Source: a virus | Length of the DNA stretch: 30,705 bases | Reading direction: 5' to 3' (one strand) | Virus record (IMG/VR): IMGVR_UViG_3300020438_000161 | Span: 1 to 30,705 of that record | The notes under the pieces: model-generated | What the model saw: only the letters and a program-made list of their open reading frames with translations | The model's database searches: none | Told to the model about the DNA's origin: nothing | Position numbers and translations under genes: made by a program | In this document: positions 9,800 through 30,471 of the stretch, one piece after another | Layout of the letters: each line of letters begins with the position of its first letter | Position numbering within the stretch: the stretch's first letter is position 1

Positions 9800-11023
9800 A
9801 TGAGTGATTCTCACGAAACAGTCCTCATCGATAAATTACACAACTCACAAATCAGCATAGATCCAACAAATGATCTTCCTGACGAAAAGCGTGTAAGAGA
9901 AATCGTTGATGCCATTGTTCAAAATGAAAAGATAGTAACAGTTCAATCAATAATTGCTGAAGTTGTTGATGTTGTTATGGATGAAAATGATTTAGATGAT
10001 GACGTAACACCACTTCACATTGGCTGTATAAAAGTAAACACAGGAAATGTACCGTTTCCTATACTCCCTAAAGACGATAGTGGCTGGGTATTTCCATTAG
10101 ACTCTCAAGTAAAATGCTATCCTGTTCCTGGTGAATTAGTTGCCATTATAAATTATGGTGCACAAACATATTATTTTCAGCCGCTTAATATAAGAAATAG
10201 TGTTAACAATAATATAATGCTAGGATCAATGGCAACACAACAAGACGGAAAAGCAACAACAAAAAATATTAATGAATATGTAAAGAATTTTAAAAGACAA
10301 GTTGTAAATAGACCAGTTAAAAATTTTCCTGGAGACTGGGCAGTTAATGGTAGAAATGACCAGTCAATAAGGATAGGAACTGATGTAATTGCAGACACTG
10401 ACAGTATTCCTAGTCCGGACAACGCTGTAATAAAGATGTCAATATCTTCTATAGAAGAAAATTCTAGAAATGCACTTCTACCAAGAAAAGAAAATATCAA
10501 CCTGGATCCTGCTTCTTTATGGATGACTAGAAATGAAACTGTTAAGATTGATATTTCACCGAGTGCAGGTGAAACATTTACACCTTCTGAACTTAAGGGT
10601 TCACAAATAGTAGGTAATTCTGAACGGATTACTTTTAATACTAAGGGTGTGGGTGATAAAGGACAGATTAATTTATTCGCATCAAATACAGCAAATGTAA
10701 TATCAAAAAACAATACGAATCTTGTTGGTAAGAATGTTTTGATAGGTGATGTAGAAGCAAATAATTTACAGCCGGCAGTATTAGGAGATAATTTAGTCAC
10801 TCTGCTTCATCAGCTATTTCAGCAGCTAAATAGTTTTGCAACACAATTATCATCTGCAACAGGTGTAGGTAATATAGGTGGACCAGTTCCTCTACCTGCA
10901 ATTATGGGAGCAGGTGCTGGGATGTCAGGATACGCCGGTACTGCTGGGCAGAAATCAGCACTAGAAAACTTACTATTGAGTAAAAATGTTAAAGTATCAA
11001 AAAGACCCAAAACAGGATTATAA
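9800..11023 (+). CDS. 5: gp5-like baseplate hub / spike protein (no lysozyme domain)
   Basis: 407 residues. An OB-fold-like domain at about residues 50-135 (IGCIKVN...PLDSQVKCYPVPGELVAIINYG) matches the N-terminal domain of gp5 and of VgrG-type spikes, where it seats on the gp27 hub. The middle is beta-rich. The C-terminal part carries short strands (NVLIGDVEANN) and a Leu-Gly-Asp-Asn-Leu-Val helix, as in related phages. T4 gp5 has 575 residues with a central lysozyme; here no lysozyme motif is visible, as is usual in cyanophage gp5. The next gene's ATG overlaps its stop. Confidence 0.8.
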   Translation: MSDSHETVLIDKLHNSQISIDPTNDLPDEKRVREIVDAIVQNEKIVTVQSIIAEVVDVVMDENDLDDDVTPLHIGCIKVNTGNVPFPILPKDDSGWVFPLDSQVKCYPVPGELVAIINYGAQTYYFQPLNIRNSVNNNIMLGSMATQQDGKATTKNINEYVKNFKRQVVNRPVKNFPGDWAVNGRNDQSIRIGTDVIADTDSIPSPDNAVIKMSISSIEENSRNALLPRKENINLDPASLWMTRNETVKIDISPSAGETFTPSELKGSQIVGNSERITFNTKGVGDKGQINLFASNTANVISKNNTNLVGKNVLIGDVEANNLQPAVLGDNLVTLLHQLFQQLNSFATQLSSATGVGNIGGPVPLPAIMGAGAGMSGYAGTAGQKSALENLLLSKNVKVSKRPKTGL

Positions 11024-12489
11024 TGGCACTAGACTGTAACAACATTACATCACTAAAAAGAAATCTCTCACCAGGGGCAACATTATTACTAGGCGATCAG
11101 ATTGTAGATGGTGATGCTATTTTTCAAGGCGGAGAGTCTAGCACTACTGGAGTGAGTGAAGAAGAATTATTACAAAATCAAGCTGCTGCTGAAGTTTATG
11201 ACATCGAGCTTACAACTACCTCAGCTTTCAATACAGGTGATACATTAGGAGCTGGAGATTATATAACAGAAGAAGGTTTTATAGCGGGGCCTAATGGTAT
11301 TGAGGTCATCCACTCTGGATATGGAGGTGATGCAAGAATATTTGCTGAAGGAACTTCATTAGATGTAGGAGATATTGTAGTTAATGGAAAAGTAATAGAT
11401 CCTGATGGTAATATTTTAGATGCTCCTGTCTCTATAGATAGAGAAGGTTACAAGATTGGAGAAGGCGGAGGAATTGTTACACCTGGTGGTGCTGATTCTG
11501 ATGATGCTTATTGCAGTCTTCAAGAGTTGGCAGGAAAGCCACAAAAAGGTGATAGGTTAGATGATCTTGCAGCAAAACTAGATTTTGACGTTAACATTCC
11601 TGGTCTATCTGGTGACTGGTGGGTGAAGATACAGAAAAAGATAAATGCACTTACAATGATGCAGGGGAAGTTTCTTTCAAAGACACAAAACCTAATTACA
11701 CTTATGGAGATGGAGCCTGATAAGGCTTGTGATCTCATACCAGATGTTAACAAGCTAGTTAAGATTATGAACAAGGTCTTAAAGACTATTAGCAAGATTA
11801 ATAAAATTTTAAAGAAAATAAACAAGACAATTAAGAAAATTAAAAAAGTAGTAAAGTTAATTTTAAAACTCATAAAACCTCTAAGAGTAGTACAAGCAAT
11901 CTTGTTTATGATACAGATGATAGAAGGCATTCCAATAATGATTGATGCTGCTGTAAAGAATATGACAATGACACAAAAAGTACTACCACAGTTAATTGCA
12001 CTTTTGCAAAAGATAGTTGCACAGTGCGCAATGAATAGAGGTGCAGAAGCAGGCCTATCTAAAGAGCAGTGTGAAAAGCTTGGTGGTGTTTATGTTGATA
12101 GAGCACTAGGAGATTTAGGTGATGCTGGTTCGCTAGACGGAGCACCTGGTTTGCCTGATCCAAATGCAGACTTAGACAATTTACTAGATGATTTAAATGA
12201 AGGAGATGATGGAGACAATTTATACTTCCCTCCTAATATGGGCCTTAATCCTGGTGATACACTAATTGATGGAATTGCTTTAGGAGATGGAGGAGAAACT
12301 TTACAAGCTCCAGCAACAGTACCAGCAACTGGTAACTGGGTGATGGGAGAAGATGGAGGTGCAGGAGTTTCTGAAAATGGAATACTTAGTGAAGAAGAAA
12401 TTGATGCAATATTAGACTCACAAATTTTAGATCTGTCAGAATGTATGACAGAATTAGATGATATGTTAAAAACAACAAGCTATAGATAA
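11023..12489 (+). CDS. Virion structural protein with cationic helix, 488 aa
   Basis: The N-terminal 170 residues contain short repeated beta units of the kind GDxLxxGDxIxxxGxIxxG; similar units recur at about residues 410-445. Between them, residues about 244-290 form a striking lysine/isoleucine helix, followed by a hydrophobic stretch (about 290-315). The helix could be a trimeric coiled coil or a membrane-active segment. The position right after gp5, with the ATG overlapping its stop, and the mixed layout suggest a tail hub or baseplate component. I cannot name a T4 counterpart. Confidence 0.65.
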   Translation: MALDCNNITSLKRNLSPGATLLLGDQIVDGDAIFQGGESSTTGVSEEELLQNQAAAEVYDIELTTTSAFNTGDTLGAGDYITEEGFIAGPNGIEVIHSGYGGDARIFAEGTSLDVGDIVVNGKVIDPDGNILDAPVSIDREGYKIGEGGGIVTPGGADSDDAYCSLQELAGKPQKGDRLDDLAAKLDFDVNIPGLSGDWWVKIQKKINALTMMQGKFLSKTQNLITLMEMEPDKACDLIPDVNKLVKIMNKVLKTISKINKILKKINKTIKKIKKVVKLILKLIKPLRVVQAILFMIQMIEGIPIMIDAAVKNMTMTQKVLPQLIALLQKIVAQCAMNRGAEAGLSKEQCEKLGGVYVDRALGDLGDAGSLDGAPGLPDPNADLDNLLDDLNEGDDGDNLYFPPNMGLNPGDTLIDGIALGDGGETLQAPATVPATGNWVMGEDGGAGVSENGILSEEEIDAILDSQILDLSECMTELDDMLKTTSYR

Positions 12490-12500
12490 AGGTAAGCAAA

Positions 12501-12914
12501 ATGAATAAAAAACAAATAACGACACTAAAAAAATTGATAAAAGAAATGGTGTCTAAAGAAGTTGCTAAACAAATGCAAATTGTAATATCAGAAATAACAA
12601 ACCCACCAGTAAAGAATACTGTAAGTGAACTCATGGCAGATGAAATTAGTTCAGGGCCAAAGACTAACTTAAATGTAAAAGATCCCGTTCTTAATAAGAT
12701 ATTAAATGAGACAGAAGGCGGAATCGGTGGCGGTCAAGAAGCATATCCAACAATGGGTGGAGGTGCTTATACTTCTGATAGAATGACAGAAGTCGCAGGT
12801 GTTACACCAGCAGGACAACCTACAGGTGCTATGCCAGATTTTATGCAAAAAGCAATGAGTGGTCATTCAGCAAAAGTTGTTAAAGCAATAGAAAAGAAAC
12901 ATGGCTCTAGATAA
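12501..12914 (+). CDS. Probable baseplate or tail accessory protein, 137 aa
   Basis: A basic coiled-coil-like N-terminal helix (about 1-35) is followed by a Gly-, Pro- and Met-rich low-complexity middle (about 70-115) and a short basic C-terminal helix. Similar helix-linker-helix proteins sit between gp5 and gp25 in marine T4-like phages. It overlaps the next gene by 14 bases. The function is unknown. Confidence 0.6.
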   Translation: MNKKQITTLKKLIKEMVSKEVAKQMQIVISEITNPPVKNTVSELMADEISSGPKTNLNVKDPVLNKILNETEGGIGGGQEAYPTMGGGAYTSDRMTEVAGVTPAGQPTGAMPDFMQKAMSGHSAKVVKAIEKKHGSR

Positions 12915-13425
12915 AAAACGATTAGTAAGAAATATTGCAAAGATAGAGAACGATAAGACAGCGAAAAATACGTTTCTCAAGACAAAGCCTAAAATTCAGG
13001 AGATGAAAGAGAACGTAGAAGAAGCTTCAAAGTTGGCCAATGCAATACACGATTATGTCGCCAGAGCAGAAGTTGAACAAGTAGGTGATGGAGGATTTAA
13101 AACTCTCCCTGGAGGAATAAGAATTCCTCAACCTGGCAATAGGAACTCTCTAAAAATAACTCCGCTCATTGAAAAAAATAGTCTTCAATGGATTGCAGAT
13201 GATATACAACAATTGTTAGGAATATTAGCACCGACCATTCAGCAACAAGCTGCTCTAGATAATATGAAACAAGGATTAGAGCTTGGTATTGTGACTACAA
13301 ATGCAGGAATACGATATTTAACTACAAGGAGAAGAGCATCTCAGCTTGGTGGCTCCTTTCAGCCAGTATCAGATAACTTGGCTAAAGAATTAAAAAAGAA
13401 TGCAGGCAAAGGTAGATTAAAATAA
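12901..13425 (+). CDS. Probable structural protein, 174 aa
   Basis: A soluble basic helical protein in the baseplate cluster. It has a Gly/Pro-rich loop (LPGGIRIPQPGN) near residues 68-79, then two helical stretches and a lysine-rich tail. It starts inside the preceding gene, and its stop overlaps the gp25 ATG (TAATG). Location supports a virion or assembly role; no T4 counterpart can be named. Confidence 0.6.
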   Translation: MALDKKRLVRNIAKIENDKTAKNTFLKTKPKIQEMKENVEEASKLANAIHDYVARAEVEQVGDGGFKTLPGGIRIPQPGNRNSLKITPLIEKNSLQWIADDIQQLLGILAPTIQQQAALDNMKQGLELGIVTTNAGIRYLTTRRRASQLGGSFQPVSDNLAKELKKNAGKGRLK

Positions 13426-13861: not shown

Positions 13862-15862
13862 ATGGCTAGCACTAAAATAATGCCAAAACCGGTAAATTAT
13901 CTCAATAAAAACTTTAATAACTTTAAAGCAGATTTAATTGAGTATGCAAAGACATACTTTCCTCAAAGTTATGCAGACTTTAATGAAGCATCTCCTGGAA
14001 TGATGTTTATTGAGATGGCATCTTACGTAGGTGATGTTCTATCATTTTATATAGATGAACAATTTCGTGAATCACTACTTGCCTATGCAGAAGAAAGAAA
14101 AACAGTATTTGATATAGCACAATCTTACGGATACAAACCAACAATAGCAACACCTTCAACTGCAAATTTAGATGTTTATCAGACTGTACCAGCGACAGGA
14201 GCAGGAGATAACGTAGCACCAAATTACAATTATGCTTATACAGTGAAGGCTGGAAGTGTTGTAGAAGCATCGGACTATGGAAAAACATTTAGGACATTAG
14301 ATGATGTAGACTTTAGCCATTCTAGTTCTATGGACCCAACAACATCAGAAATTTATGAAGTAAACAATAACGGTGCACCAACAAAATTTTTACTTAAAAA
14401 ATCTTGCAAAGCTGTAAGTGGTACAATAACAACAGAAAAATTTACATTTACAAATGCAGTTGCTTATGATAAAGTTACTTTAGGACAAAAAGGTGTTTTA
14501 GAAGTTATCAGCGTATTAGATTCTGATAACGGGAAATACTATGAAGTTGAATCACTTGCACAAGATTTAGTATTTGATGATGTAGCAAACACTGCAGAAT
14601 TTGATCCTAATCTTGCAGGATTTAATGAAACTACACCTTACATATTAAAAGTTTTGAGGACACAAAAAAGATTCAAGACAAAAGTTAATACTGATGGTAA
14701 GTTAGAATTGTGTTTTGGTTCAGGAACTTCTTCGCAACCAGATGAAGAGATAATTCCTAATCCCTCCACAGTAGGAAATAATTTTACCAATACAAACTTT
14801 TTAAATAACAATAGTGCATTAGACCCTGCCAACTTTTTAAATACAGCAGTCTATGGTCAAGCACCTGCAAATACAACACTGACTATAAAATATTCTTATG
14901 GTGGCGGTGTTGAGGCAAACGTACCTGCTGGCACAATAACTTCAAAAAGAGGTTTAGAACTATCAATAGCATCTTCAGCATTAGATGCATCAATATTGTC
15001 TGAAACAAAAGATTCTATAGCAGTTACAAATCCTATACCTGCAACAGGTGGAAGAGGAGAAGAATCTTTAACAGAAATAAAAGAAAATACAAAAGCATAT
15101 TTTCAAGCACAAAATAGATCTGTATCAAAAGAAGACTATATTACAAGAGTATATAACTTACCTGCAAAATATGGTAATGTGCAAAAGATTTATATTAATC
15201 AAGATGACCAGCTACAAACTGGCGAAGGAATAATACAAGACGGTATTATCAACATGGAAACATTAGAAAAATTAGGTGGAGAAGTTTCTATTGCAGAATT
15301 ATTAGGTGAAGGTGATAGGGTGCGGAATCCAATGGCACTTAATTTCTACGTACTAGGATATGACAGTGATAAAAAACTAGTCAAGGTAAATGAAGCAACC
15401 AAGAGAAATATTAGGACTTACTTAGGTCCTTACAGAATCTTGACTGATGCTATAAATCTTAAAGATGCATACATGATCAATATATCGGTTAGGTTTGCTA
15501 TCTACGCGAAGAAGGGATACAATAAAAACGAGGTATTATTAAATTGTATTCAAAAAGTAAAAGATCATTTTGATATAGATAAATGGCAAATCAATCAGCC
15601 AATAATTTTACAAGACGTTGCTTATCAAATATCATTGGTAGAGGGTGTTAATAATGTTGTGCCTCCAATTGACAACAATCCAAATAAAGATACAATAATA
15701 ATTCAAAATAAATTTAAAGAAGAATTAGGATATTCAGGGAATGTTTATGACATACAAGCGGCAACTGTTAAAGATATTATCTATCCTTCACTAGATCCTT
15801 CTATTTTTGAAGTACGTCTTCCTGATTCAGATATTATTGGTAAAGTGCTAGGAGATTATTAA
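13862..15862 (+). CDS. 6: gp6-like baseplate wedge subunit (Baseplate_J family)
   Basis: 666 residues, very close to T4 gp6 (660). The N-terminal region shows the conserved pattern of a Pro-Glu/Asp-Phe-Asn-Glu-Ala-Ser-Pro-Gly segment, then a helix (MFIEMASYVGDVLSFYIDEQ) and a Tyr-Gly-Tyr-Lys-Pro turn. The C-terminal third carries the J-like domain: VSKEDYITRVYNLPAKYGNV, and later a strand pair preceding LINISVRF-type sequence. gp6 dimers form the inner ring that links the six wedges. It lies directly after gp25, as in many marine T4-like genomes. Confidence 0.93.
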   Translation: MASTKIMPKPVNYLNKNFNNFKADLIEYAKTYFPQSYADFNEASPGMMFIEMASYVGDVLSFYIDEQFRESLLAYAEERKTVFDIAQSYGYKPTIATPSTANLDVYQTVPATGAGDNVAPNYNYAYTVKAGSVVEASDYGKTFRTLDDVDFSHSSSMDPTTSEIYEVNNNGAPTKFLLKKSCKAVSGTITTEKFTFTNAVAYDKVTLGQKGVLEVISVLDSDNGKYYEVESLAQDLVFDDVANTAEFDPNLAGFNETTPYILKVLRTQKRFKTKVNTDGKLELCFGSGTSSQPDEEIIPNPSTVGNNFTNTNFLNNNSALDPANFLNTAVYGQAPANTTLTIKYSYGGGVEANVPAGTITSKRGLELSIASSALDASILSETKDSIAVTNPIPATGGRGEESLTEIKENTKAYFQAQNRSVSKEDYITRVYNLPAKYGNVQKIYINQDDQLQTGEGIIQDGIINMETLEKLGGEVSIAELLGEGDRVRNPMALNFYVLGYDSDKKLVKVNEATKRNIRTYLGPYRILTDAINLKDAYMINISVRFAIYAKKGYNKNEVLLNCIQKVKDHFDIDKWQINQPIILQDVAYQISLVEGVNNVVPPIDNNPNKDTIIIQNKFKEELGYSGNVYDIQAATVKDIIYPSLDPSIFEVRLPDSDIIGKVLGDY

Positions 15863-17415: not shown

Positions 17416-20400
17416 ATGGCAATCAAAAAAAAGAAAAAAGGCACAGGCAAAGGATTTAAAAAGAAAAGCGCCGGCTCTAAGCCAATTAAGCTTGGATCTC
17501 CTGGCGGTAAGCTTGGACAGATTTCTGATCCTGTAATAAGTGATTTATCGATAAAGTCAAATGAGGCTGCTTCTATAAACTCACCAAAAATAACAGGTAC
17601 AAGCACAACAGTACAAGCTTCTCAGATGATAGCTTCTGGTGGAGCACCAAGCCCAGCCAGTATTTCTAATACACAGCAAAATGCCTCTGTTCAACCTGCT
17701 CCTCCAGCTGCTAGTCCTGAACCATTAGTCGGTTTAATAGACCAAAAAGCTAATAGGCAAATAGACATACCACAAGACATATACAATCTTGTAAGGCTTC
17801 CAGATGTAAATGACTTCAAGCCTTATAGGGACACTAGCTATTATACACAACTTACAGGCTATGATTACAAAAGTGACAAATGGCCTGATTTATACTTTGG
17901 CGGATCAGATGCTGATATTATTAAAGTTTGTGTTTACGGAAGTGATGGCGGAAAGATTGCTACTGAGTATTTAACAAAAAATAAAATAGATACGTATATT
18001 GCTAGTGCAATTAAAGGTTCTCCAGCTGTTGTTAAAATAGATACAGGAAAAATTTTAAGAGACTTAGGTTATAGAAGAGGAAGGTTTGAAGTAAAATTTG
18101 AATTTATGAGACTTTCTGCAGGTGGTCCATTTCCTGTATTAGTTAACGGAAAAGAAAAGATTTATAGAGGAAACTTTGAACAAGGTGACCAGCAGTATTT
18201 TTATGCATCTTCTGATGATCCTAATTCAGAGACAATAGAAGGTGACAAACTTTATGTAAAAGAAAACAAATACATAATTACAAAAATTTCAGGTGATAGA
18301 ACAGAAGCTATTATTGCTCCTGCCTTTATCGATGACGAACAATATTTAGAAAGCTTTAGACTAGCAGCTTATAATTGTATTAACTGGTTTCCAGAAGATC
18401 CTGCTCCTCCTGCAGTATTTGTAGATCCTGCAACAAACGTAATTTCTTTTAACACACCTGAAAATCTCCCAACAGGATTTATGAATGGCACAATTCGTAT
18501 TGCAAATGCATACTTTATGGGAAAGAGAATTGTAGATGAAGAAAGAGATCAACTAGAATTTGAACCTATAATCGAAACACAGACTTTAAATCCTAACTTT
18601 TTAATTGGTAGAACTCTTGATACAAAGTTTGGTTGGGTCGGTGGAGGGCCGTGGCCAAACGCATCAGCTGTTAATATTTCTGTTGAAGATCCTGTAGAGA
18701 TCGGCGATAAGAGAGCTTTAAGGCTTGATAATGTAATAGATCCAAATCCTTCAGGACAATTTGCTGTTAAGGCAACATTACAAAACACATTAAACTTTGA
18801 ACAAGAGTATTTAAATACTCCTACAGTAGACGGAGGAGCTGCTTCATCAGCAGGAAATCCGAGGTCTATTGGCGCAATTATGCGAACAAATTTAATTATT
18901 AACACATCACCTTATGTTCCAATGCCTATTGTAGTAGAAGGCACACAAATGACTTTTAGTGTCTACGTTAAAGCAGAAGAAGGTGAAAGACTAAGCCTTA
19001 TGGCACATGCAGACCCATGGGCAGATAATGGAACAACAATTTATAGCCCAACAACAGTATCTAATGGCGACTGGCAAAGACTTACATTAACATATACACT
19101 TACAAATACTGCTGGGATAAATAAGCTTTTATTTAGAATTAGATGGGAACCTGGTTATGATGATAGCAACAATTTAAGATGGGATCCTTCAAATCAGTCA
19201 AGTGTTGAACAACATCACGTATCATTTGCAGGAGCACAAGTTGAACTAGGCCCTGAAGCAACAGACTTCCACAGGGTGGGACCTGGCAATGACACTACAA
19301 TTGATGTTGGTACAGAAAATATTATAAAATTCGCAGATCCAGATGGCAAAATTTTAATTGGTGATTTAGCACCAGGCGAAGAGTTTACTCCAAATATGAT
19401 TGGTGGAAAATTAATCGTTAACGATGCACATGCAATACTAGATTTATCAGAAACATTATTAATAAATGAAATTGACAGTGATTCTGTTTTTGAATGGGAC
19501 ATACAACCTTCAGATGGTGCAACAGGAAATCCAAGAACTGGTGGAATGTTATCTAAAGTAAATGCTTACGCTATTGAAAAAATAGATGAGGGTGGCGATC
19601 CTATATTATATCCTATACTAGATGAAGGATTAAATTCACAAGCAATAGAAGTATCAGATCAGTTTGGTATATCAACATTTTCTAGAGGATACAATGCTCT
19701 TTACTGGTCTAGAAAATATGCAGGTACAGCTGATTTTGGTTATCATGCACAATGGGTTGCAGAAAAAGGGATCGATGGTGGTGTTGCTATGTGGTTTCCA
19801 GACTTAAATTATCAAGACTATATTTATGATGATATTGTTGCTGCAAGAATTGAAGCAGGCCCAACAGACAGAAATTTTGAAGTACCTTCAGTTGAAGAGT
19901 TTGCAGATAAAAATAATTACGCTCATAGATTTATGCAAATATCTACTCCTGAAGAAGATGTTGAGAGAATTGGAACAAATTTTAAATCAATAGGTGCATT
20001 AGCATCTTATGGTGTAAGAGTAGGAGATAGGATAAAAGTTAGCTGGATGCAAAAATCAGATCCAATTGACTTTGAAGATGGGGGTAGAAAAGGTGCATGG
20101 GTAACTGTTAATCACTGGGCACAGTCAGAAATATCACCTCCTGACGTACCTGTTATTACAGAAGAAGATAGATTTTATGAAGACGAAGCATTTCACTTAT
20201 ATTACGGTGGTGTACAAGGTGAATTTGGTGCATATGATCCTTATGTAGAATTAGATGGCCTAAGAATAAACTCAGCTCCTAGTTTACCACCAGGGAATAA
20301 TGAAATAGCTATAGAAAACTTTTTAAATCTTTACGCAATAGACAGACCTCAAGCAGAAGGAGCAGGTGGTTATGTCTACAATCAAGAAGGCGAGCTAATA

Positions 20401-23400
20401 GAATCAGAGGCATTTAAATGGTATTGGTTGAGTACTGGTGGATCAAATAATGATGAAAGTTTTAGTGATGATGATATTGAAGACGATCCGTTAGTTGGTA
20501 GGTGGACATGTAAGCGTTTATCTGAAGTTATTTATCCTGGCGATTCTGAAATGGTGTTAAATCAGTACAGAGTAAAAGGTAACATACAAGGAAGATCTGC
20601 TCTACTAGACATTAATGAATATCCAAGTTACGATAGCTTTCCAACAAATAGAAATATTTCATCAGACGGTGTTTACAAATGGAATGGAGAAAGCTGGGTT
20701 TTTGCAACAGATGGTGGACAATTAGACTGGAACTCTGTATTAGAGATAGAAGGTGATGATGCTACACTTTATAAGAGAACTAGAAGGCTAGAAGCATTTA
20801 ATTCTGGTCCGGTTTCTACAGGGCACATTTATTGTAACGAGTTCAATCAGTGGGAACATGCAGCATTTGAATTTGAGATAACAGAATTTTGGGCTTTAGA
20901 AAGACCAGTAATGCTAGATGTTAGAGGACACTATGGATCTTTTGGTAATTTATATGTAGACAAATTAAAAATGGAAGTAATTAAGACTTCTATGGAAAGG
21001 CCTGAGATAACTGAGAATGCAGTACTAGGCCCACTAGAATTTAATATTGTTAATGTAATAGATACTGATAAGATAGAAGTTGATCATAACTATGTTGCTG
21101 CTTCTAGTGAACAGGGTGGATTAACATCTTCGATAGGGAAAAACAAATATTCTACTTTTGATAAAGGATTTGTTATTGATTACATTACACAAGAGCAAGG
21201 ATCAGAAGATATTTTTGCCAGATATGAATCAAAAATTTTAGACGTAATTAATGATCAAGACTCACAAAAACAAATAGTTGTAGAAAAAACATACGAAGAG
21301 TATGGAGAAGAAATTGGTGCTGTAATGTCAGGTGCTGATTCTATCAACGTATTGAGTGCAAACTTTAACGACTATTTTATTAGATATAGAATGAAAGATG
21401 CAGATAATTTGTACACATATCTAATAACAGGCGATGATTCTAAGTCTTTGATAACAAACTTTAAGCCTGTGAATGTTGAAGATTACCCTGGTGCTATAGC
21501 ATATAAATTTATGGCACCGCTCCCACCAGAAATCGCATTATTAGATATGGCTTTTATTGCTGAAGAAGCAACACCTACACTGGTGGAGAAATTTGACCTT
21601 ATACCTTTTATAGAAGAAAAAATTCCACCTACAGTTTTAAGACAGCCAAACTGGGATGATGTTGATAAGCCTATAAGAGACAGGCAAACAAAATATCAAT
21701 CACATACAGATCTTGTTGGTACTAATGTAGATGTAAGAAAACAAATAGAAGATAGAGTTTTAAGTGGAAGTTTAGAGACAGCAAAAATAAATGTTGATTA
21801 TAGTCAGTTTAAAAACTTTTCACACTTTGGATCAGTAGAAAAGAAACTAAATAATTTTAGAAATAAATTATACGCAATAGAAACTTATGCAGCAAACAGT
21901 GCATCATTATTAGGAACAGGAACTTCACAAGGATATTTAGGAAACGCTGCTGGTGAATTAGTAAGCGGATCTTCAGATGATGTATTGAAGTGGGAACAGG
22001 AAGCTAGAAAAGTTATAAACGGATTTGATGAATTTGAAAACTACATGTACAACAAAAGCTCTTCTTACTCATCAGGATCAAACGGTGTTTTTTATGACAA
22101 TGCACTTCCAAAGTATGCAGCTGCTGGTACATTATCAGATCCTTTTATTCCTTACTCTACAACCAGTTCAAGGTTTACAACTTGGTATACTACACAACAA
22201 GCTAGTGCTTCTCTATATGATAGGGGTAATGCAAACAGATTAATTAATTTAATGCCAGAACATATTACATCTGATTATGAAAACGAAGAGTTTTTAAATT
22301 TTATGGATATGATAGGACACCATTATGATATAATATGGACTTACGTAAAGTCACTAACAGATGTACATGATAGATCTGAAGACATTACAAAGGGTATATC
22401 AGCAGGACTTGTAGAGCCTGTTGCGGAATCTTTAGGATTTCCTATGATCGAAGGTCGTGATATGGTTTCACTTCCTCAGTATCATCTAGGTCTTGCAGAA
22501 TCACCAACAGAAAAAGGTGTTTACAATGTAAGGTATACACAGAAATCACAGAAAGATGTTACAAGAGAAATATGGAATAGAATACTAGCAACTATGCCTT
22601 ACATGTTAAAAACAAAAGGGACAAAACAATCCCTAAAGGCATTAATAGCCGCTTATGGAATACCAACATCTATTTTAAGAATACAAGAATATGGTGGACC
22701 TAGACCTCAAGCTGATCAGAATGATTTTGACATAAAACAAAAATTTACAAAAGCACTAGATTTTAATTCAAGTCAATATGTGTCAACATCTTGGAATCAT
22801 GCACAACATACAACACCATTTGCACAATACGCAAGAACAAATGACACAATAGAATTTAGGTTCAAAGCAGCATCTGAAGAAACTATGCAAATAGCAACAA
22901 AAGTTAGTGCTTCAGGTGACAGAATGGCAACAATACAGTTGGTAAACGATGGTGGTGCTGATGGAAGAGGAAAATTAAAATTTGAATTAGAAGGAAAAGA
23001 AGGCGGTGGTAGAATATCACAAAGTATAGAATTGCCTTCACATGCAGTCTATAATGGTGAATTCTGGTCAGCGATGGTTAGAAGAAGAACACACCACTTA
23101 ACATCTTCTATTAGTGGAAGCTGGTATGATATGGCACTTCCTTCTGACTTACACACATCACAAAGTTTTGACTTGTTCTTAGGATATTATGATGCAGGCA
23201 TTGACAAAGTAATTGTTGCAGAGTCAGGAAGCATGACAGTAGAACATGAATTCTTGACAGAGGCATTTGCTAGAACAGGATCTCATCATGCTATACTTGC
23301 AAATCCAACTGACATGTGGCAGTGGGGTGGTTCAACAACAGATGCACATACTGGTAGTTTTGGTAGTCCATTTTCTGGTTCTATGATGGAAGTAAGATAT

Positions 23401-24852
23401 TGGTCTACTCCTCTAAAGGCAGATGCCTGGTTAAATCACGTAGGTGCTCCAAAAGCAGTTAATGGAAATCATGAGAGTTCATCATATTTTGATATGAGTG
23501 CAAGATTTAGTTTTGATGATAATATAAACTTAAATGATTCTCCGAACGGAATAAAAGATTATACATTTACAGATGGACAATTAATTGCTACTGCATCTGG
23601 ATTCCCTGACACAATTAATTTTAGCAGTGTTTCTGATAGACAGAATGCATTTGTACCAAAGATAGGATTTACAAAACAAGCAAATAAACTAAGAATAGAA
23701 GCCAATACACTAAAACAGCCTGATGGAAGTCCTGGACTTTTAAGTCCGACAGAAAGAGTTGAAATAAGCTCTTACGATAATGCTGGTTTAGACTCCAATA
23801 AATTAGGTGTGTTTTTTGCACCTTCTGATGTTATAAATGAAGATATTATGTTATCTTTAGCAGACTTAGACTTTAGCAAATATCTTGGTGATCCTAGAGA
23901 CATGTACAATGACAGATATTCATTTGGTGATTTGGATGGAATATCAGACACTTACTGGAAGAAGTGGACTACAAAACAAGGTTTCTGGGATTACATGAAA
24001 CTTATAAAATACTATGACTTAAGTTTATTTGATCATATAAGAAGGCTATCACCTGCAAGAGCAAGAAAAAATATTGGTATACTGATAGAATCACACATAT
24101 TAGAAAGACCAAAAATACCTGTAGGGGCACCGCCTGTATTTGATGACATTATTAAACGTGCTGAGATCGATGCAAAATATGCAGAACCAACATCTTCTAA
24201 TGATTTCAGAACTGCAGAGGTTAGTATAACACCGGTTCCTGCTACTTCATCTAATGAGTTTAGAACTGCAACAGTTACTGATACAAACTTAAGCAACAGT
24301 ATAACATCTTCAAATGTAGGTGATTATTCTACAATTGCTCTAGGACAAACAGGATCAATAAAAGCATCAAGAGATGAATTTGATACTGCAACTTTTGATT
24401 CTGAACTACGTGGTAATGCTCAATCATTCACACTTAAGAGTTTTGATGTTGATGTTTTACAAACACCTGGATCACCAGAGACAGACTATAGTGGATCACA
24501 AGTTTATTTTGCTGGTGGTGGATCTGACGTATTGTTTGAGATACTACAACCTATGGTCACTGGTTCTAGAATTGCTAGATTTAATCAAGAGAGAGTTTTC
24601 TTTTATGGATCTAATATAAGTGCATCAAAAGATTTACCAAATTCATCATCATTACATCCTACAGATGTTGAATCATTGTTTACAACGCATACAGGCCTAT
24701 CAAATCTTGCATATAATGGATGTAAAAACACTGGATTAAACCAACCGGATGGAACAGACAAGGCAGTTGAAATATTTGATGTCAATCCTTACGCAGTTAC
24801 TGTTGATAAAAACATCGATTCCAACCTGGATGTTGATCTGATAAATGAATAA
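17416..24852 (+). CDS. Giant gp7-like baseplate wedge protein with lectin-like domains
   Basis: 2478 residues, over twice T4 gp7 (1032). Order: lysine-rich start (1-34); Ala/Pro/Ser linker (about 55-105); beta-rich region; CBM-like jelly roll (about 390-617, ending AQVELGPEATDFHRV); jelly-roll-like segments near 855-900 and 1125-1192. A wedge core covers about 1410-1762, with a Tyr-x-Gln-Phe-x-Asn-Phe-x-His-Phe-Gly-Ser segment, a long helix, and GTKQSLKALIAAYGIP, which resembles P2 gpI/T4 gp7 tail protein I. A LamG/concanavalin-like domain follows (about 1777-2038). The tail has three short repeats (about 2255-2335). The tail-I-like signature makes gp7 the best equivalent, and the lectin-like parts suggest glycan contact at the baseplate rim. 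The frame is unbroken. Confidence 0.8.
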   Translation: MAIKKKKKGTGKGFKKKSAGSKPIKLGSPGGKLGQISDPVISDLSIKSNEAASINSPKITGTSTTVQASQMIASGGAPSPASISNTQQNASVQPAPPAASPEPLVGLIDQKANRQIDIPQDIYNLVRLPDVNDFKPYRDTSYYTQLTGYDYKSDKWPDLYFGGSDADIIKVCVYGSDGGKIATEYLTKNKIDTYIASAIKGSPAVVKIDTGKILRDLGYRRGRFEVKFEFMRLSAGGPFPVLVNGKEKIYRGNFEQGDQQYFYASSDDPNSETIEGDKLYVKENKYIITKISGDRTEAIIAPAFIDDEQYLESFRLAAYNCINWFPEDPAPPAVFVDPATNVISFNTPENLPTGFMNGTIRIANAYFMGKRIVDEERDQLEFEPIIETQTLNPNFLIGRTLDTKFGWVGGGPWPNASAVNISVEDPVEIGDKRALRLDNVIDPNPSGQFAVKATLQNTLNFEQEYLNTPTVDGGAASSAGNPRSIGAIMRTNLIINTSPYVPMPIVVEGTQMTFSVYVKAEEGERLSLMAHADPWADNGTTIYSPTTVSNGDWQRLTLTYTLTNTAGINKLLFRIRWEPGYDDSNNLRWDPSNQSSVEQHHVSFAGAQVELGPEATDFHRVGPGNDTTIDVGTENIIKFADPDGKILIGDLAPGEEFTPNMIGGKLIVNDAHAILDLSETLLINEIDSDSVFEWDIQPSDGATGNPRTGGMLSKVNAYAIEKIDEGGDPILYPILDEGLNSQAIEVSDQFGISTFSRGYNALYWSRKYAGTADFGYHAQWVAEKGIDGGVAMWFPDLNYQDYIYDDIVAARIEAGPTDRNFEVPSVEEFADKNNYAHRFMQISTPEEDVERIGTNFKSIGALASYGVRVGDRIKVSWMQKSDPIDFEDGGRKGAWVTVNHWAQSEISPPDVPVITEEDRFYEDEAFHLYYGGVQGEFGAYDPYVELDGLRINSAPSLPPGNNEIAIENFLNLYAIDRPQAEGAGGYVYNQEGELIESEAFKWYWLSTGGSNNDESFSDDDIEDDPLVGRWTCKRLSEVIYPGDSEMVLNQYRVKGNIQGRSALLDINEYPSYDSFPTNRNISSDGVYKWNGESWVFATDGGQLDWNSVLEIEGDDATLYKRTRRLEAFNSGPVSTGHIYCNEFNQWEHAAFEFEITEFWALERPVMLDVRGHYGSFGNLYVDKLKMEVIKTSMERPEITENAVLGPLEFNIVNVIDTDKIEVDHNYVAASSEQGGLTSSIGKNKYSTFDKGFVIDYITQEQGSEDIFARYESKILDVINDQDSQKQIVVEKTYEEYGEEIGAVMSGADSINVLSANFNDYFIRYRMKDADNLYTYLITGDDSKSLITNFKPVNVEDYPGAIAYKFMAPLPPEIALLDMAFIAEEATPTLVEKFDLIPFIEEKIPPTVLRQPNWDDVDKPIRDRQTKYQSHTDLVGTNVDVRKQIEDRVLSGSLETAKINVDYSQFKNFSHFGSVEKKLNNFRNKLYAIETYAANSASLLGTGTSQGYLGNAAGELVSGSSDDVLKWEQEARKVINGFDEFENYMYNKSSSYSSGSNGVFYDNALPKYAAAGTLSDPFIPYSTTSSRFTTWYTTQQASASLYDRGNANRLINLMPEHITSDYENEEFLNFMDMIGHHYDIIWTYVKSLTDVHDRSEDITKGISAGLVEPVAESLGFPMIEGRDMVSLPQYHLGLAESPTEKGVYNVRYTQKSQKDVTREIWNRILATMPYMLKTKGTKQSLKALIAAYGIPTSILRIQEYGGPRPQADQNDFDIKQKFTKALDFNSSQYVSTSWNHAQHTTPFAQYARTNDTIEFRFKAASEETMQIATKVSASGDRMATIQLVNDGGADGRGKLKFELEGKEGGGRISQSIELPSHAVYNGEFWSAMVRRRTHHLTSSISGSWYDMALPSDLHTSQSFDLFLGYYDAGIDKVIVAESGSMTVEHEFLTEAFARTGSHHAILANPTDMWQWGGSTTDAHTGSFGSPFSGSMMEVRYWSTPLKADAWLNHVGAPKAVNGNHESSSYFDMSARFSFDDNINLNDSPNGIKDYTFTDGQLIATASGFPDTINFSSVSDRQNAFVPKIGFTKQANKLRIEANTLKQPDGSPGLLSPTERVEISSYDNAGLDSNKLGVFFAPSDVINEDIMLSLADLDFSKYLGDPRDMYNDRYSFGDLDGISDTYWKKWTTKQGFWDYMKLIKYYDLSLFDHIRRLSPARARKNIGILIESHILERPKIPVGAPPVFDDIIKRAEIDAKYAEPTSSNDFRTAEVSITPVPATSSNEFRTATVTDTNLSNSITSSNVGDYSTIALGQTGSIKASRDEFDTATFDSELRGNAQSFTLKSFDVDVLQTPGSPETDYSGSQVYFAGGGSDVLFEILQPMVTGSRIARFNQERVFFYGSNISASKDLPNSSSLHPTDVESLFTTHTGLSNLAYNGCKNTGLNQPDGTDKAVEIFDVNPYAVTVDKNIDSNLDVDLINE
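24178..24420 (+). repeat. Three degenerate repeats in the tail of the giant wedge gene
   Basis: The coding sequence carries TSSN(D/E)FRTA-V units at residues about 2258-2267 and 2276-2285. A looser third copy (ASRDEFDTATFD) lies near residue 2316. The units recur every 20-40 residues in the C-terminal part of the protein and look like a small internal duplication. Confidence 0.55.
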
Positions 24853-26859: not shown

Positions 26860-27885
26860 ATGGCACAGCAAGAAGGTATATTTACAACATTCGACGATGA
26901 CGATAAGGTAACTAGTCAGATTAGTATCGTCTCATCCGGCATGTGGTCCGGTGGGGTCGGTACTTTGACTGCATTCCATACGTCATCCACACAAAGTGGA
27001 AGTACAGGACAACACTACTTAGATGTTTATAACGGTATTGTTGGTACTGATGCAACTGCATCGGTTCAATTTTCTGTAGCATTTGGCCATTACGCTGGTT
27101 CTGGTTCAAAAGTAGGAGATGCAGATTACGCAGCATCAAAAGCAGTTTATAGACAGTTTAGAAATCTCTTACTACCACAAAATGAAGAGTTCTTTAACAT
27201 AACAGGTGCAAGTGGTAATGCAACACAGTCATTAGCTATAGCAACTGTTTCAATGAATAGATCACGTCTTAAAGAAAAGATGGATCCAGGTAACTGGGAG
27301 TTACGTGTTTCTGGTTCTGACGGAAAGACTTATAAGCTTATTGATGATAGTGGTGCTACAAGCGATCCTACAGTCAAGAAGACAACAAGAGAATTCAATG
27401 TTATATCTGGTTCTATAGAATCTGGTACTGCTGTATCACCTTCAGGTGAGGTTAAGTATTATGGAAAATTCTATCCGGAGTCTGGCATTGTTATTGCAGA
27501 CATAGCAACACTAGGTGGAGCTACTACTTTTGCTGGGTATAATATAACATCAACATCTGTTGATCGTAATAATACACAAAGACTTTATCAAGGAATCAGT
27601 GGATCTGGATACTTTGCTTCAAGGCGCGAAGAATCAATAAGATCTACGCATTACTTCTGTAGAGTAAAACACAGCATGTACAATCACTCTCAGAATCCTA
27701 CGTACTTCACTGCTTCAACGAACGAACTTACAGTTCCTTCTTTTAGGACAGATCCGCAATCATATATTACAACAGTTGGTTTATACAATGATGCTAATGA
27801 GCTATTAGCTGTAGCAAAACTTTCTAGACCAATTTTAAAATCTACTAGTAGAGAGGCACTAATTAAAGTAAGATTAGACTTCTAA
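26860..27885 (+). CDS. Structural protein, paralog A (341 aa)
   Basis: A beta-rich Ser/Thr/Gly-rich protein without membrane segments. Its C-terminal 40 residues (ITTVGLYNDANELLAVAKLS...KVRLDF) match the end of the gene at 27951. This terminal motif occurs in structural proteins of marine T4-like phages and probably marks a shared assembly or packing interface. It has its own candidate late promoter, so it may be made in high amounts. No T4 counterpart can be named. Confidence 0.75.
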   Translation: MAQQEGIFTTFDDDDKVTSQISIVSSGMWSGGVGTLTAFHTSSTQSGSTGQHYLDVYNGIVGTDATASVQFSVAFGHYAGSGSKVGDADYAASKAVYRQFRNLLLPQNEEFFNITGASGNATQSLAIATVSMNRSRLKEKMDPGNWELRVSGSDGKTYKLIDDSGATSDPTVKKTTREFNVISGSIESGTAVSPSGEVKYYGKFYPESGIVIADIATLGGATTFAGYNITSTSVDRNNTQRLYQGISGSGYFASRREESIRSTHYFCRVKHSMYNHSQNPTYFTASTNELTVPSFRTDPQSYITTVGLYNDANELLAVAKLSRPILKSTSREALIKVRLDF

Positions 27886-27950: not shown

Positions 27951-29072
27951 ATGTTTACGCCAATCAGAAAAGAAGACAAGCAGGTAACACCTTACACAAT
28001 TCATAAAGAGTTTACTGTACAGAATTATGCTGGCATTAATACTGCTACTGATTTGGGTATTTTCCAAGCAGAAGCCATAACAGGTAGTTTACAAGGTTTT
28101 GCATCTAATGGAAGACCTGCATTTGAAACTAGTTCTGCACAGGTTAATACATTTGTAAGTGGTGGCAATACTTTTAATGTTTATAAAACACCGTTATATG
28201 AACAAATAAAACATAATTTTTTTGAATTTGCAAATCCTAATAATAGAGTTTCCTCACAGCCTCAGCCACAAAATGTATTAGATATATATTGTAGGCCGTG
28301 GGGACACCCTAAATCACATGAGACTGGTTCATTAACAACATTAAGTTTTGATGAAAAATCATACCATTGGCAAACACTAGGATTAAGAAAAATTTATAAT
28401 AAAGCAAATGTTGTAAGTATCCCACAAAATTTATTTGGCGAAGGAATTAGATCGGGTTCTATTGAAATAACAGACTATTCTTCTGGTGATGCTTTGACTA
28501 TAGTTGATGACGGCTATGGAAACTTGTATGACCAAGCATATGAAACAGAGTTTAATAACGGAAGACCAACAGCTGACGGCTCAGGTTCAGCATTAGGTGT
28601 GGTTTCTTATGAGTACGGCCTAGTAATGCTTTCAACAACTTCAAGTTATTATGAAGGAATTGCTAGCGGATCAGGTGCAACTGGCTGGAAATTAAAGTGG
28701 GAATCAACAAAAACTGTATATGAGCATGAATATCAGTGTATAATTCCTTCAGAAAAATATAATGCGTCAACAAATATAAGCACAACTTTTCAGAGGAGTG
28801 GAAGCATAACTATACCTTCATCGTCTGTCTCTAGTCTAGATTTATTAAGACAAGTAATGCCACCTGCAGAATCACAGTATAGTACAGGAAGTTCTATAAA
28901 TGCTGCGACTACTACAGAAGGATTTGTAACACATTCATTTTTTGCACCTTATATTACAACAGTCGGATTGTATAACGATGCAGGAGACTTATTAGCAGTA
29001 GCAAAAACTTCAAGAGCGATTAGAAATGACCCTGAGATAGCTATGTCATTTGTTGTGCGATTTGATATTTAA
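27951..29072 (+). CDS. Structural protein, paralog B (373 aa)
   Basis: A beta-rich Ser/Gly/Thr-rich protein. The end repeats the ITTVGLYNDAGDLLAVAK-SR-I motif found in the gene at 26860, and both proteins have a Trp/His-containing middle, so they are distant paralogs. An aromatic, Pro-rich segment at about residues 95-140 (CRPWGHPKSHE) is specific to this copy. Likely a virion protein. AAGGA at 27941-27945 is the ribosome binding site. Confidence 0.75.
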   Translation: MFTPIRKEDKQVTPYTIHKEFTVQNYAGINTATDLGIFQAEAITGSLQGFASNGRPAFETSSAQVNTFVSGGNTFNVYKTPLYEQIKHNFFEFANPNNRVSSQPQPQNVLDIYCRPWGHPKSHETGSLTTLSFDEKSYHWQTLGLRKIYNKANVVSIPQNLFGEGIRSGSIEITDYSSGDALTIVDDGYGNLYDQAYETEFNNGRPTADGSGSALGVVSYEYGLVMLSTTSSYYEGIASGSGATGWKLKWESTKTVYEHEYQCIIPSEKYNASTNISTTFQRSGSITIPSSSVSSLDLLRQVMPPAESQYSTGSSINAATTTEGFVTHSFFAPYITTVGLYNDAGDLLAVAKTSRAIRNDPEIAMSFVVRFDI

Positions 29073-29073
29073 T
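29065..29073 (+). promoter_or_regulatory. Weak late-promoter-like element ATATTTAAT
   Basis: This differs from the element at the other late genes at one of nine positions and overlaps the stop codon of the upstream gene. It stands 17 bases before the ATG of the cysteine-rich peptide, the same spacing as at 9391 and 27926. A similar string at 5870 inside the small-gene cluster shows that single matches of this quality occur by chance. Confidence 0.3.
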
Positions 29074-29090: not shown

Positions 29091-29153
29091 ATGTGTAATT
29101 GTAAAGATTGTAAATGTGAAGAATCTTGTGAATGTAAATGTTGTGTGTGTTAA
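29091..29153 (+). CDS. Metallothionein-like cysteine-rich micro-protein, 20 aa
   Basis: A 20-codon frame ending in TAA (29151-29153). Nine of twenty residues are Cys (2, 4, 7, 9, 13, 15, 17, 18, 20), in Cys-x-Cys, Cys-x2-Cys and Cys-Cys spacings; the rest are mainly Lys, Glu, Asp and Asn. This is the make-up of small metal-thiolate proteins such as metallothioneins. A good Shine-Dalgarno CGGAGAA (29079-29085) precedes the ATG, and a late-promoter-like element is upstream. Metal binding (Zn, Cu, Cd) or redox buffering is inferred from composition only. It is far too short for routine gene finders, and there is a small chance that it is not translated. Confidence 0.6.
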   Translation: MCNCKDCKCEESCECKCCVC

Positions 29154-29172
29154 GTAAGATAGGAGAAAACAG

Positions 29173-30471
29173 ATGTTGAAGAAAATTATAATAGGCTTAT
29201 TGTTAACCTCATCTTTGTTTAGTCAGATAAGTGATAATAACTTTTTTGTAAACTTTTTTAAGTATTCAACAGCTTATGCGAGTTTTAGTTTAAATGCACC
29301 AAGACACCAAGACGATAGATTTGCTATTGTTGGTGGTTTGTCTACAGGCGACCTAGTATTTGAAAGGTCTGAAAGAGAGTTGAAACCTGACTTTCAAAAA
29401 TCATTTGGTATTAGGAAAATTGGTAGATTTAAATATGAACCCAAAAGAGGTGTTAGGAATGCAGGAAAAGGTGGAGAGTGGTATGATGGATCAGAACAAA
29501 ATGCTAATGAAAGTGCTACATTTGGACCGGTTAAAGGTTGGGAATTTTTAGTTAAATGGTCAGAAGGTAGACAGTGGGGCAATGAATACTTAAATCAAGA
29601 ATATTGGTTAAGGTATGTTGGCTCATGGTATGTTGCTAAAGTAGCTTGGACTGAGTTAGGCTTAGAAGAAATAAATTACGGTTCTGCAGACTTTAGGTTA
29701 AAAGCAAATGCTATTGATAATAAATTTAGTTTTAGCGCAGGTGTAAAACACAGACAGCATCCCGTATATGGATTTGATGCTGCAATTTTAGACACTACTT
29801 GGTATAGAGGACAATGGTGGAACTTTGCTGAAGATGCATTTGGAATAGATGATAATATGTGGTTTGATCCAACAATGCAAGATGAAGATGGGAACTGGTT
29901 AAAGCAACAACTATACGAATATGACCCTATTACAGGTGAGTTAAAAGAAATTGAAGGCGCTGGACCATTTTGGAATGAAGGTGGTGAGTATTGGGGACAC
30001 GATTGGTTATGGAGAGATGCTGATGGCCGGATCTTCGCATATACAGATAGAGAATATTTCCTGTATCATTTCCCTGGTATGTTGGAAAAATACATCGATG
30101 GGAAAAAGAAAGATCTTGGATTTCAGCGAGAAACTTCTATAGTTTTAGGAGCTGACTTTTATCATTATTCCGATAATTGGTGGTTGCATGCTTGGGGTAA
30201 TTGGATGCCGTATCATTATGGACACGACTTATATTCTTACCATAATGCAGATGCTTATGCTGAGCACAAAGAAGATAAAAAGAAGCCACACGAATTTATG
30301 TTTATGGAACCAATGTGGATGCAATGGCATGATTACGATTTTGGTGCGATATTTGGTGTTAAGATAAAGGACAATCTTGGAGTTTTCGCAGAAGGCAAAT
30401 ATTTATATTATTGGGAACGTCCTGCTTATGATATTAAGTTGGGCATAAATTATCAGTGGATGGGATTTTAA
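29173..30471 (+). CDS. Secreted, probable outer-membrane beta-barrel protein
   Basis: 432 residues. A Sec signal peptide is clear: Lys-Lys start, hydrophobic core at about residues 5-16, and a likely cleavage between Ser17 and Gln18. The mature part is extraordinarily rich in Trp and Tyr with alternating strand patterns, and the last residues end in a terminal Phe (YQWMGF), the hallmark of outer-membrane beta-barrels recognised by BamA. The likely role is an envelope protein made in the infected cell, for example a modified porin, or a superinfection-exclusion or lysis-related factor. AGGAG (29161-29165) precedes the ATG. No family is recognised. Confidence 0.75.
   Translation: MLKKIIIGLLLTSSLFSQISDNNFFVNFFKYSTAYASFSLNAPRHQDDRFAIVGGLSTGDLVFERSERELKPDFQKSFGIRKIGRFKYEPKRGVRNAGKGGEWYDGSEQNANESATFGPVKGWEFLVKWSEGRQWGNEYLNQEYWLRYVGSWYVAKVAWTELGLEEINYGSADFRLKANAIDNKFSFSAGVKHRQHPVYGFDAAILDTTWYRGQWWNFAEDAFGIDDNMWFDPTMQDEDGNWLKQQLYEYDPITGELKEIEGAGPFWNEGGEYWGHDWLWRDADGRIFAYTDREYFLYHFPGMLEKYIDGKKKDLGFQRETSIVLGADFYHYSDNWWLHAWGNWMPYHYGHDLYSYHNADAYAEHKEDKKKPHEFMFMEPMWMQWHDYDFGAIFGVKIKDNLGVFAEGKYLYYWERPAYDIKLGINYQWMGF

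Follow-up and report, generated by a model that had tools for sequence, protein, structure and literature searches.

A cysteine-rich micro-gene in a phage structural region and a class of predicted metallothionein-like micropeptides in several phage lineages

Gene organization at the locus

The stretch of DNA analysed here (the window), which comes from a marine phage, comprises 30,705 nucleotides, positions 1 to 30,705 of the IMG/VR virus record IMGVR_UViG_3300020438_000161. Between two longer genes on the same strand it carries a very short open reading frame at positions 29091-29153 of the plus strand, which starts with ATG, encodes the peptide MCNCKDCKCEESCECKCCVC and ends with TAA. Nine of the 20 residues are cysteines (positions 2, 4, 7, 9, 13, 15, 17, 18 and 20), and the peptide contains neither histidine nor a hydrophobic stretch. 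The features of the region are as follows.

27951-29072, plus strand: upstream neighbour, predicted protein of 373 aa
29073-29157, plus strand: accessory cassette, roughly 80 nt (approximate extent), missing from the same gene boundary in the related loci L002 and L042
29080-29083, plus strand: Shine-Dalgarno-like GGAG, ending 7 nt 5' of the micro-ORF ATG (from the sequence)
29091-29153, plus strand: cysteine-rich micro-ORF (from the translation, the chance estimate and relatives with a similar peptide at the same place)
29162-29165, plus strand: Shine-Dalgarno-like GGAG of the 432-aa gene, also present in L002, which lacks the micro-ORF
29173-30471, plus strand: downstream neighbour of 432 aa with a signal-peptide-like start, probable outer-membrane protein

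Because the gene at 13862-15862 has matches among the baseplate wedge PHROGs, the window represents a tailed-phage structural region. The original prediction had placed the micro-ORF between a virion protein gene and an envelope protein gene. Its location between two genes is correct, whereas the basis for the labels "virion" and "envelope" is position together with the signal-peptide-like N-terminus; neither the 373-aa nor the 432-aa protein matched a Pfam or PHROGs family. As the 432-aa gene has its own GGAG, its translation can start without help from the micro-ORF.

The 373-aa gene is a paralogue of the gene at 26860-27885, as indicated by the clustering of the two in one family in relatives (c0) and by a stretch of 76% identical DNA. 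At its 3' end, positions 28940-29007 form a 68-bp stretch that is 79% identical to part of a gene of Flavobacterium phage immuto, and the same stretch also matches the window's own gene 26860-27885. Elsewhere the window carries a putative 2OG-Fe(II) oxygenase gene (792-1412, E = 1.7e-6), an HSP20 chaperone gene (2224-2694, E = 2.6e-21) and, inside the structural region, a single ORF of 2478 aa (17416-24852).

Coding potential and expression signals of the micro-ORF

The translation bears out the earlier description of nine cysteines in 20 residues with Cys-x-Cys and Cys-x2-Cys spacings, and the proposed ribosome binding site is present as the GGAG listed above. A late-promoter-like element had also been proposed. 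The candidate found, TATAAACG at position 29073, matches TATAAATA in six of eight positions, and 438 such sites with two mismatches to TATAAATA occur on the same strand of the window; this frequency is at chance level, and the promoter was dropped.

Chance occurrence was estimated for ATG-initiated ORFs of 10-40 aa with at least 7 cysteines and at least 35% cysteine on both strands of the window. The micro-ORF was the only ORF passing this filter, and when the window was resampled 150 times under a second-order Markov model, no such ORF appeared. A further viral contig contains the same DNA (L001/L004; 99.96% identity over 7.9 kb), which rules out an artefact of a single assembly. Judged from the sequence, we regard it as a real coding micro-gene whose product is presumably translated.

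The same locus in related phages

We collected 46 viral loci (group A, the window's lineage) by means of the 432-aa gene alone, cysteine content not being a criterion. A cysteine-rich micro-ORF lies directly beside that gene in 11 of them, as compared with 0.6 ORFs expected by chance in the whole set on both strands at a looser threshold (at least 4 cysteines, at least 30%). It is located 5' of the 432-aa gene in L004, L013 (MCECENCNCDCCCK), L037 (MCTCENCNCDCCCK), L025, L026 and L027/L028, and 3' of it in L018/L019 (MCKLKCDCCDCCDCCNC), L020 and L023. A GGAG is found upstream of nearly all 11 micro-ORFs; in L025 the micro-ORF instead overlaps the stop codon of the preceding gene. The same motif precedes most relatives from the neighbour-anchored sets, in which a Shine-Dalgarno sequence was no criterion.

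Most group A loci lack the micro-ORF. Among them is L002, the nearest to the window in sequence (88% identical in nucleotides over 6.3 kb and 93% in protein for the 373-aa gene), in which the flanking genes are 20 nt apart, as against 100 nt in the window; L042 likewise has no micro-ORF at the same gene boundary. From these absences, a clean one in L002, we conclude that the micro-gene is an accessory cassette, about 80 nt long, subject to rapid gain and loss. The prediction of a coding micro-gene at this locus holds. The original prediction had also been staked on conservation of the cysteine positions in related phages, and this conservation was seen in both the neighbour-anchored and the pattern-collected relatives.

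A class of cysteine-rich micropeptides in viral contigs

Three DNA patterns were searched in the viral collection: GGAG followed by a frame of the MCxCxxCxC type (pattern 1), GGAG followed by one of the MCxCCxC type (pattern 2), and MCxCxxCxCxPCxC with no Shine-Dalgarno sequence required (pattern 3). They matched 45, 44 and 70 stretches, respectively, nearly all of which are complete micro-ORFs. The patterns fix the first cysteine codons, and conservation at these codons is therefore partly built in; the neighbour-anchored sets are free of this effect. As the loci are redundant, relatedness was handled by counting distinct sequences. Applied to bacterial and archaeal genomes (257 Gb), pattern 1 gave four matches, two of them trivial (MCECYDC and MCDC) and two real (L098 and L099), the latter with phage-like contexts and neighbours common to the viral loci. 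The class appears to be nearly restricted to viruses. It is important to mention that eight isolate phages with related neighbouring genes (the pelagiphages HTVC304P and HTVC031P, and CRP-804, Melnitz-3, S-H38, S-SBP1, C48C1 and YIMV22061) have no micro-ORF in the regions examined, and seven of them have no pattern match anywhere in the genome.

About 80 distinct peptides were collected, further examples being MCKCKDCKCNPCRCK and MCKCCKCCTCTCPECN. They are 12-39 aa long (median 16) and contain about 39% Cys and 15% Lys, followed by Asn, Glu and Asp. Their cysteines are spaced as CxC (272 cases), CxxC (129) or CC (42), the spacers consist of Lys, Asp, Glu and Asn, and hydrophobic residues and histidine are almost absent. 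Richness in CxC and CxxC, polar spacers and few hydrophobic residues are what is expected of a metal-thiolate peptide.

By gene neighbourhood, at least five genomic contexts can be distinguished in several phage lineages (T4-like, T7-like and others). Besides group A these are loci beside a 289-aa outer-membrane-like gene (group B), loci with a T7-like terminase (group C), loci related to the T4-like cyanophage gene order (group F), and loci beside a gene common to pelagiphage and cyanophage podoviruses (group G); further contexts are D, L105 and a set of T4-like phages that carry a nuclease gene. When the neighbouring gene was used as the anchor, the micro-ORF was found at the same place in all 11 group B loci; in group F it occurs in 14 of 63 loci, which form a closely related clade. 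On this sequence evidence, the class is a set of unannotated accessory cysteine-rich micro-genes in several unrelated phage lineages. The original prediction had called a dedicated metal-thiolate peptide in a phage unusual; such a peptide is plausible here, and it is one of a large class.

One group B contig, L077, encodes beside the outer-membrane-like gene an 877-aa protein (10365-12995) with a weak match to a Secretion system C-terminal sorting domain (E = 0.0045, below the cut-off), and its host may belong to the Bacteroidetes/FCB group.

Linkage to iscU and iscA

All 49 distinct frames with the CxCx2CxCxPCxC arrangement stop at 14-24 aa. Twenty-two of these peptides abut iscU, in many cases by overlapping its stop codon; counted up to a distance of 400 nt from iscU, the number is 26. 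In group C and its relatives, the micro-ORF overlaps the stop codon of the phage iscU or lies directly 3' of it, the distance between stop and start ranging from an overlap to about 11 nt or less. The junction in L227 reads ...AAATATGTGTAA, in which ATGTGT is the start of the micro-ORF. An iscU gene whose 3' end overlaps or abuts the micro-ORF in another frame is found at the following loci.

L052, 1443-1860
L227, 745-1170
L231, L234, L235 and L240

Such iscU-abutting micro-ORFs occur in phages with two different terminases, and iscU and micro-ORF are apparently translationally coupled. The order can also be reversed: in L079 the micro-ORF is 5' of iscU with an overlap of 1 nt, and in L105 (3577-4359) the order is micro-ORF (MCKCCKCCNCTCCE), IscU and IscA, with Pfam matches to NifU_N (1e-37) and Fe-S_biosyn (1e-13). 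In L357 (546-919), which has no IscU there, the micro-ORF abuts an IscA-like gene. Both large group F genomes (at least 137 kb) contain iscU and iscA, not adjoining the micro-ORF, and the T4-like contigs L264, L267, L281 and L244 carry a version of 27-36 residues about 1 kb upstream of iscU.

The linkage is strong but, judging from these contigs, not universal. Among the iscU matches listed in viral contigs, most lack a micro-ORF. No IscU or IscA was found in group A and B records, some of them longer than 80 kb (including records of 95-131 kb), nor in the 30.7-kb window, and the iscU clue therefore cannot be extended to the window's lineage.

Phage iscU and A-type carrier genes are known auxiliary genes of marine phages (PMC5332604); such genes are the genomic partners of many of the micropeptides, and the iscU and iron-sulfur passages of that paper name no cysteine-rich micro-ORF beside them.

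Selection at the cysteine codons

The iscU-anchored set comprised at least 80 loci, in which micro-ORFs were picked by a content of at least 4 cysteines and at least 25%. Nine loci among the iscU matches listed share an ungapped core of 15-18 codons, C-x-C-x2-C-x-C-x-P-C-x-C. In its six cysteine columns we counted 46 synonymous and no amino-acid-changing pairwise differences, a zero that is conditional on the cysteine-rich choice; the column-for-column match and the proline codons were not selected for. The invariant proline is encoded by CCA, CCT and CCG, and over the whole core pS is 0.75 vs a pN of 0.21. A similar picture was obtained for the pattern-collected groups A14, B20, F and G, in which the spacers vary and the cysteine codons change synonymously, one cysteine being lost in G. 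The micropeptides thus appear to be under selection at the amino-acid level, as seen in the relatives rather than in the window's near-identical copies.

Comparison with known families

Neither MCNCKDCKCEESCECKCCVC nor its longer relatives gave a significant Pfam match, the best being one relative to Metallothio_Euk (E = 6.2). The micropeptides matched no NCBIfam or PHROGs profile and no PDB sequence significantly; one relative aligned to a fish metallothionein with E = 8. A tblastn search of the peptide against annotated phages returned no match, and with the complexity filter on none was expected.

By function, a metallothionein binds several d10 metal ions in thiolate clusters. Bacterial metallothioneins of the SmtA/PmtA type (BmtA family) are 55-79 aa long with 8-10 cysteines (PMC8636135) and form a histidine-containing zinc-finger fold (PMC10612145). 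The phage peptides resemble them in being cysteine-rich with CxC motifs, and the window peptide, with nine cysteines in 20 residues, has the dense CxC/CxxC arrays of the Metallothio_Pro/SmtA type. They differ in their median length of 16 aa, in the near absence of histidine and in the lack of a match to the family profile; at 20 aa and with no histidine, the window peptide has neither the size nor the fold of SmtA. SmtA contains C-x-C-x-P-C-x-C, a stretch that also forms the core of the phage subclass linked to iscU. The copper metallothionein of Neurospora crassa has about 25 aa, 7 cysteines, Gly/Ser spacers and no secondary structure. Compared by description only, it is similar in being very small and CxC-based, and different in being eukaryotic and in having Gly/Ser spacers in place of the Lys/Asp/Glu/Asn-rich ones of the phage peptides.

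In the literature searched, no phage metallothionein or cysteine-rich phage micropeptide was found, and metal and cysteine go unmentioned in a review of small phage proteins. If they bind metal, the micropeptides would rank with the smallest known proteins of metallothionein-like kind and would be, as far as we know, the first such class in phages. The micro-genes, as a rule of 12-28 codons, are too short for the cut-offs that ordinary gene callers apply and are unmatched in the family libraries used.

Proposed function and alternative explanations

On balance we favour the reading in which the window peptide is a minimal metallothionein-like buffer or carrier of metal thiolates, most likely metallothionein-like in action yet outside the known metallothionein families. 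The micro-gene would be expressed from the late gene cluster, and the peptide, which has no signal sequence, would stay in the cytoplasm. There its clustered CxC, CxxC and CC thiolates may bind soft or borderline ions such as Zn, Cu(I) or Fe(II) during infection and buffer them or pass them on; both metal binding and a buffering role are deduced from composition and spacing. In the lineages with iscU/iscA coupling, the metal (or sulfur) handled would probably be tied to iron-sulfur cluster assembly. For the supply of metal to a virion protein, one of the roles initially put forward, we found no evidence.

A wider proposal, which we offer tentatively, is that several lineages independently keep phage-specific minimal thiolate peptides that serve iron-sulfur cluster assembly in infected cells by carrying metal or sulfur or by guarding the process, with translational coupling to iscU or iscA in some of them; these would be a hitherto undescribed kind of iron-sulfur accessory factor. 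That many unrelated phages encode the peptides, often beside iron-sulfur assembly genes, suggests that very small metallothionein-like peptides serve phages in handling metal or sulfur within infected cells. The coupling suggests a testable route by which infecting phages could secure their balance of iron, sulfur or metal. To our knowledge, phage iscU comes without a phage-encoded iron or sulfur donor, which is otherwise puzzling; the micropeptide would give it a use.

A considerably less probable, still serious special case is that the peptide is a dedicated carrier of Fe(II) or sulfane sulfur (persulfide) to IscU/IscA, be it that of the phage or of the host, or protects the scaffold against poisoning by Cu or Zn. 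The close junctions with iscU in phages with two different terminases, the 26 of 49 distinct peptides within 400 nt of it, the reversed order in L079 and L105, the IscA partner in L357 and the non-adjacent iscU and iscA of the two large group F genomes all argue for such a role. Against it, groups A, B, D and G have no iscU nearby, most iscU loci among the matches listed lack the peptide, and the linkage could stem from a common accessory-gene site. Adjacency to iscU or iscA is a property of other lineages and is absent at the window, for which this reading is weaker.

That the peptides serve as a thiol redox buffer or a cysteine store rather than as metal binders seems unlikely to us: the same composition would suit this role, and a thioredoxin-like gene (weak Pfam match) lies in the same late cluster in group A, but the strict CxC/CxxC spacing and the invariant proline of one subclass exceed its needs.

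Mycobacterial cysteine-rich uORFs have been speculated to act by cysteine attenuation, as cis leaders of genes of cysteine metabolism (PMC4633059). The phage micro-ORFs are likewise tiny and dense in cysteine codons and sometimes lie directly 5' of another gene, so that ribosome stalling at the clustered codons might control the next gene. We consider such a leader very improbable. The micro-ORFs keep no constant position upstream of one gene, being located before or after the same 432-aa gene, mostly after iscU, and followed by varied genes; the 432-aa gene has its own Shine-Dalgarno sequence; and the cysteine positions and the proline are conserved at the amino-acid level. An attenuator or terminator is also disfavoured, as the search for a terminator or alternative hairpin between the ORF and the next gene gave 0 terminators and no significant fold (z -1.5).

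A chance ORF or TGT-repeat low-complexity DNA, which the shortness and low complexity of the frame might suggest, has a negligible probability and is refuted by conservation, the micro-ORFs being far above chance expectation, uniform in length, recurrently preceded by a Shine-Dalgarno sequence and changed synonymously at conserved cysteines.

As a minor observation, in the T4-like contigs L244, L264, L265, L267 and L281 the cysteine-rich peptide of 27-36 residues is encoded upstream of iscU and next to an SNase-type nuclease gene, with an oxygenase-like gene ahead of the peptide gene in L264 and L267. The same SNase neighbourhood also occurs in L056 and in L098, a MAG contig.
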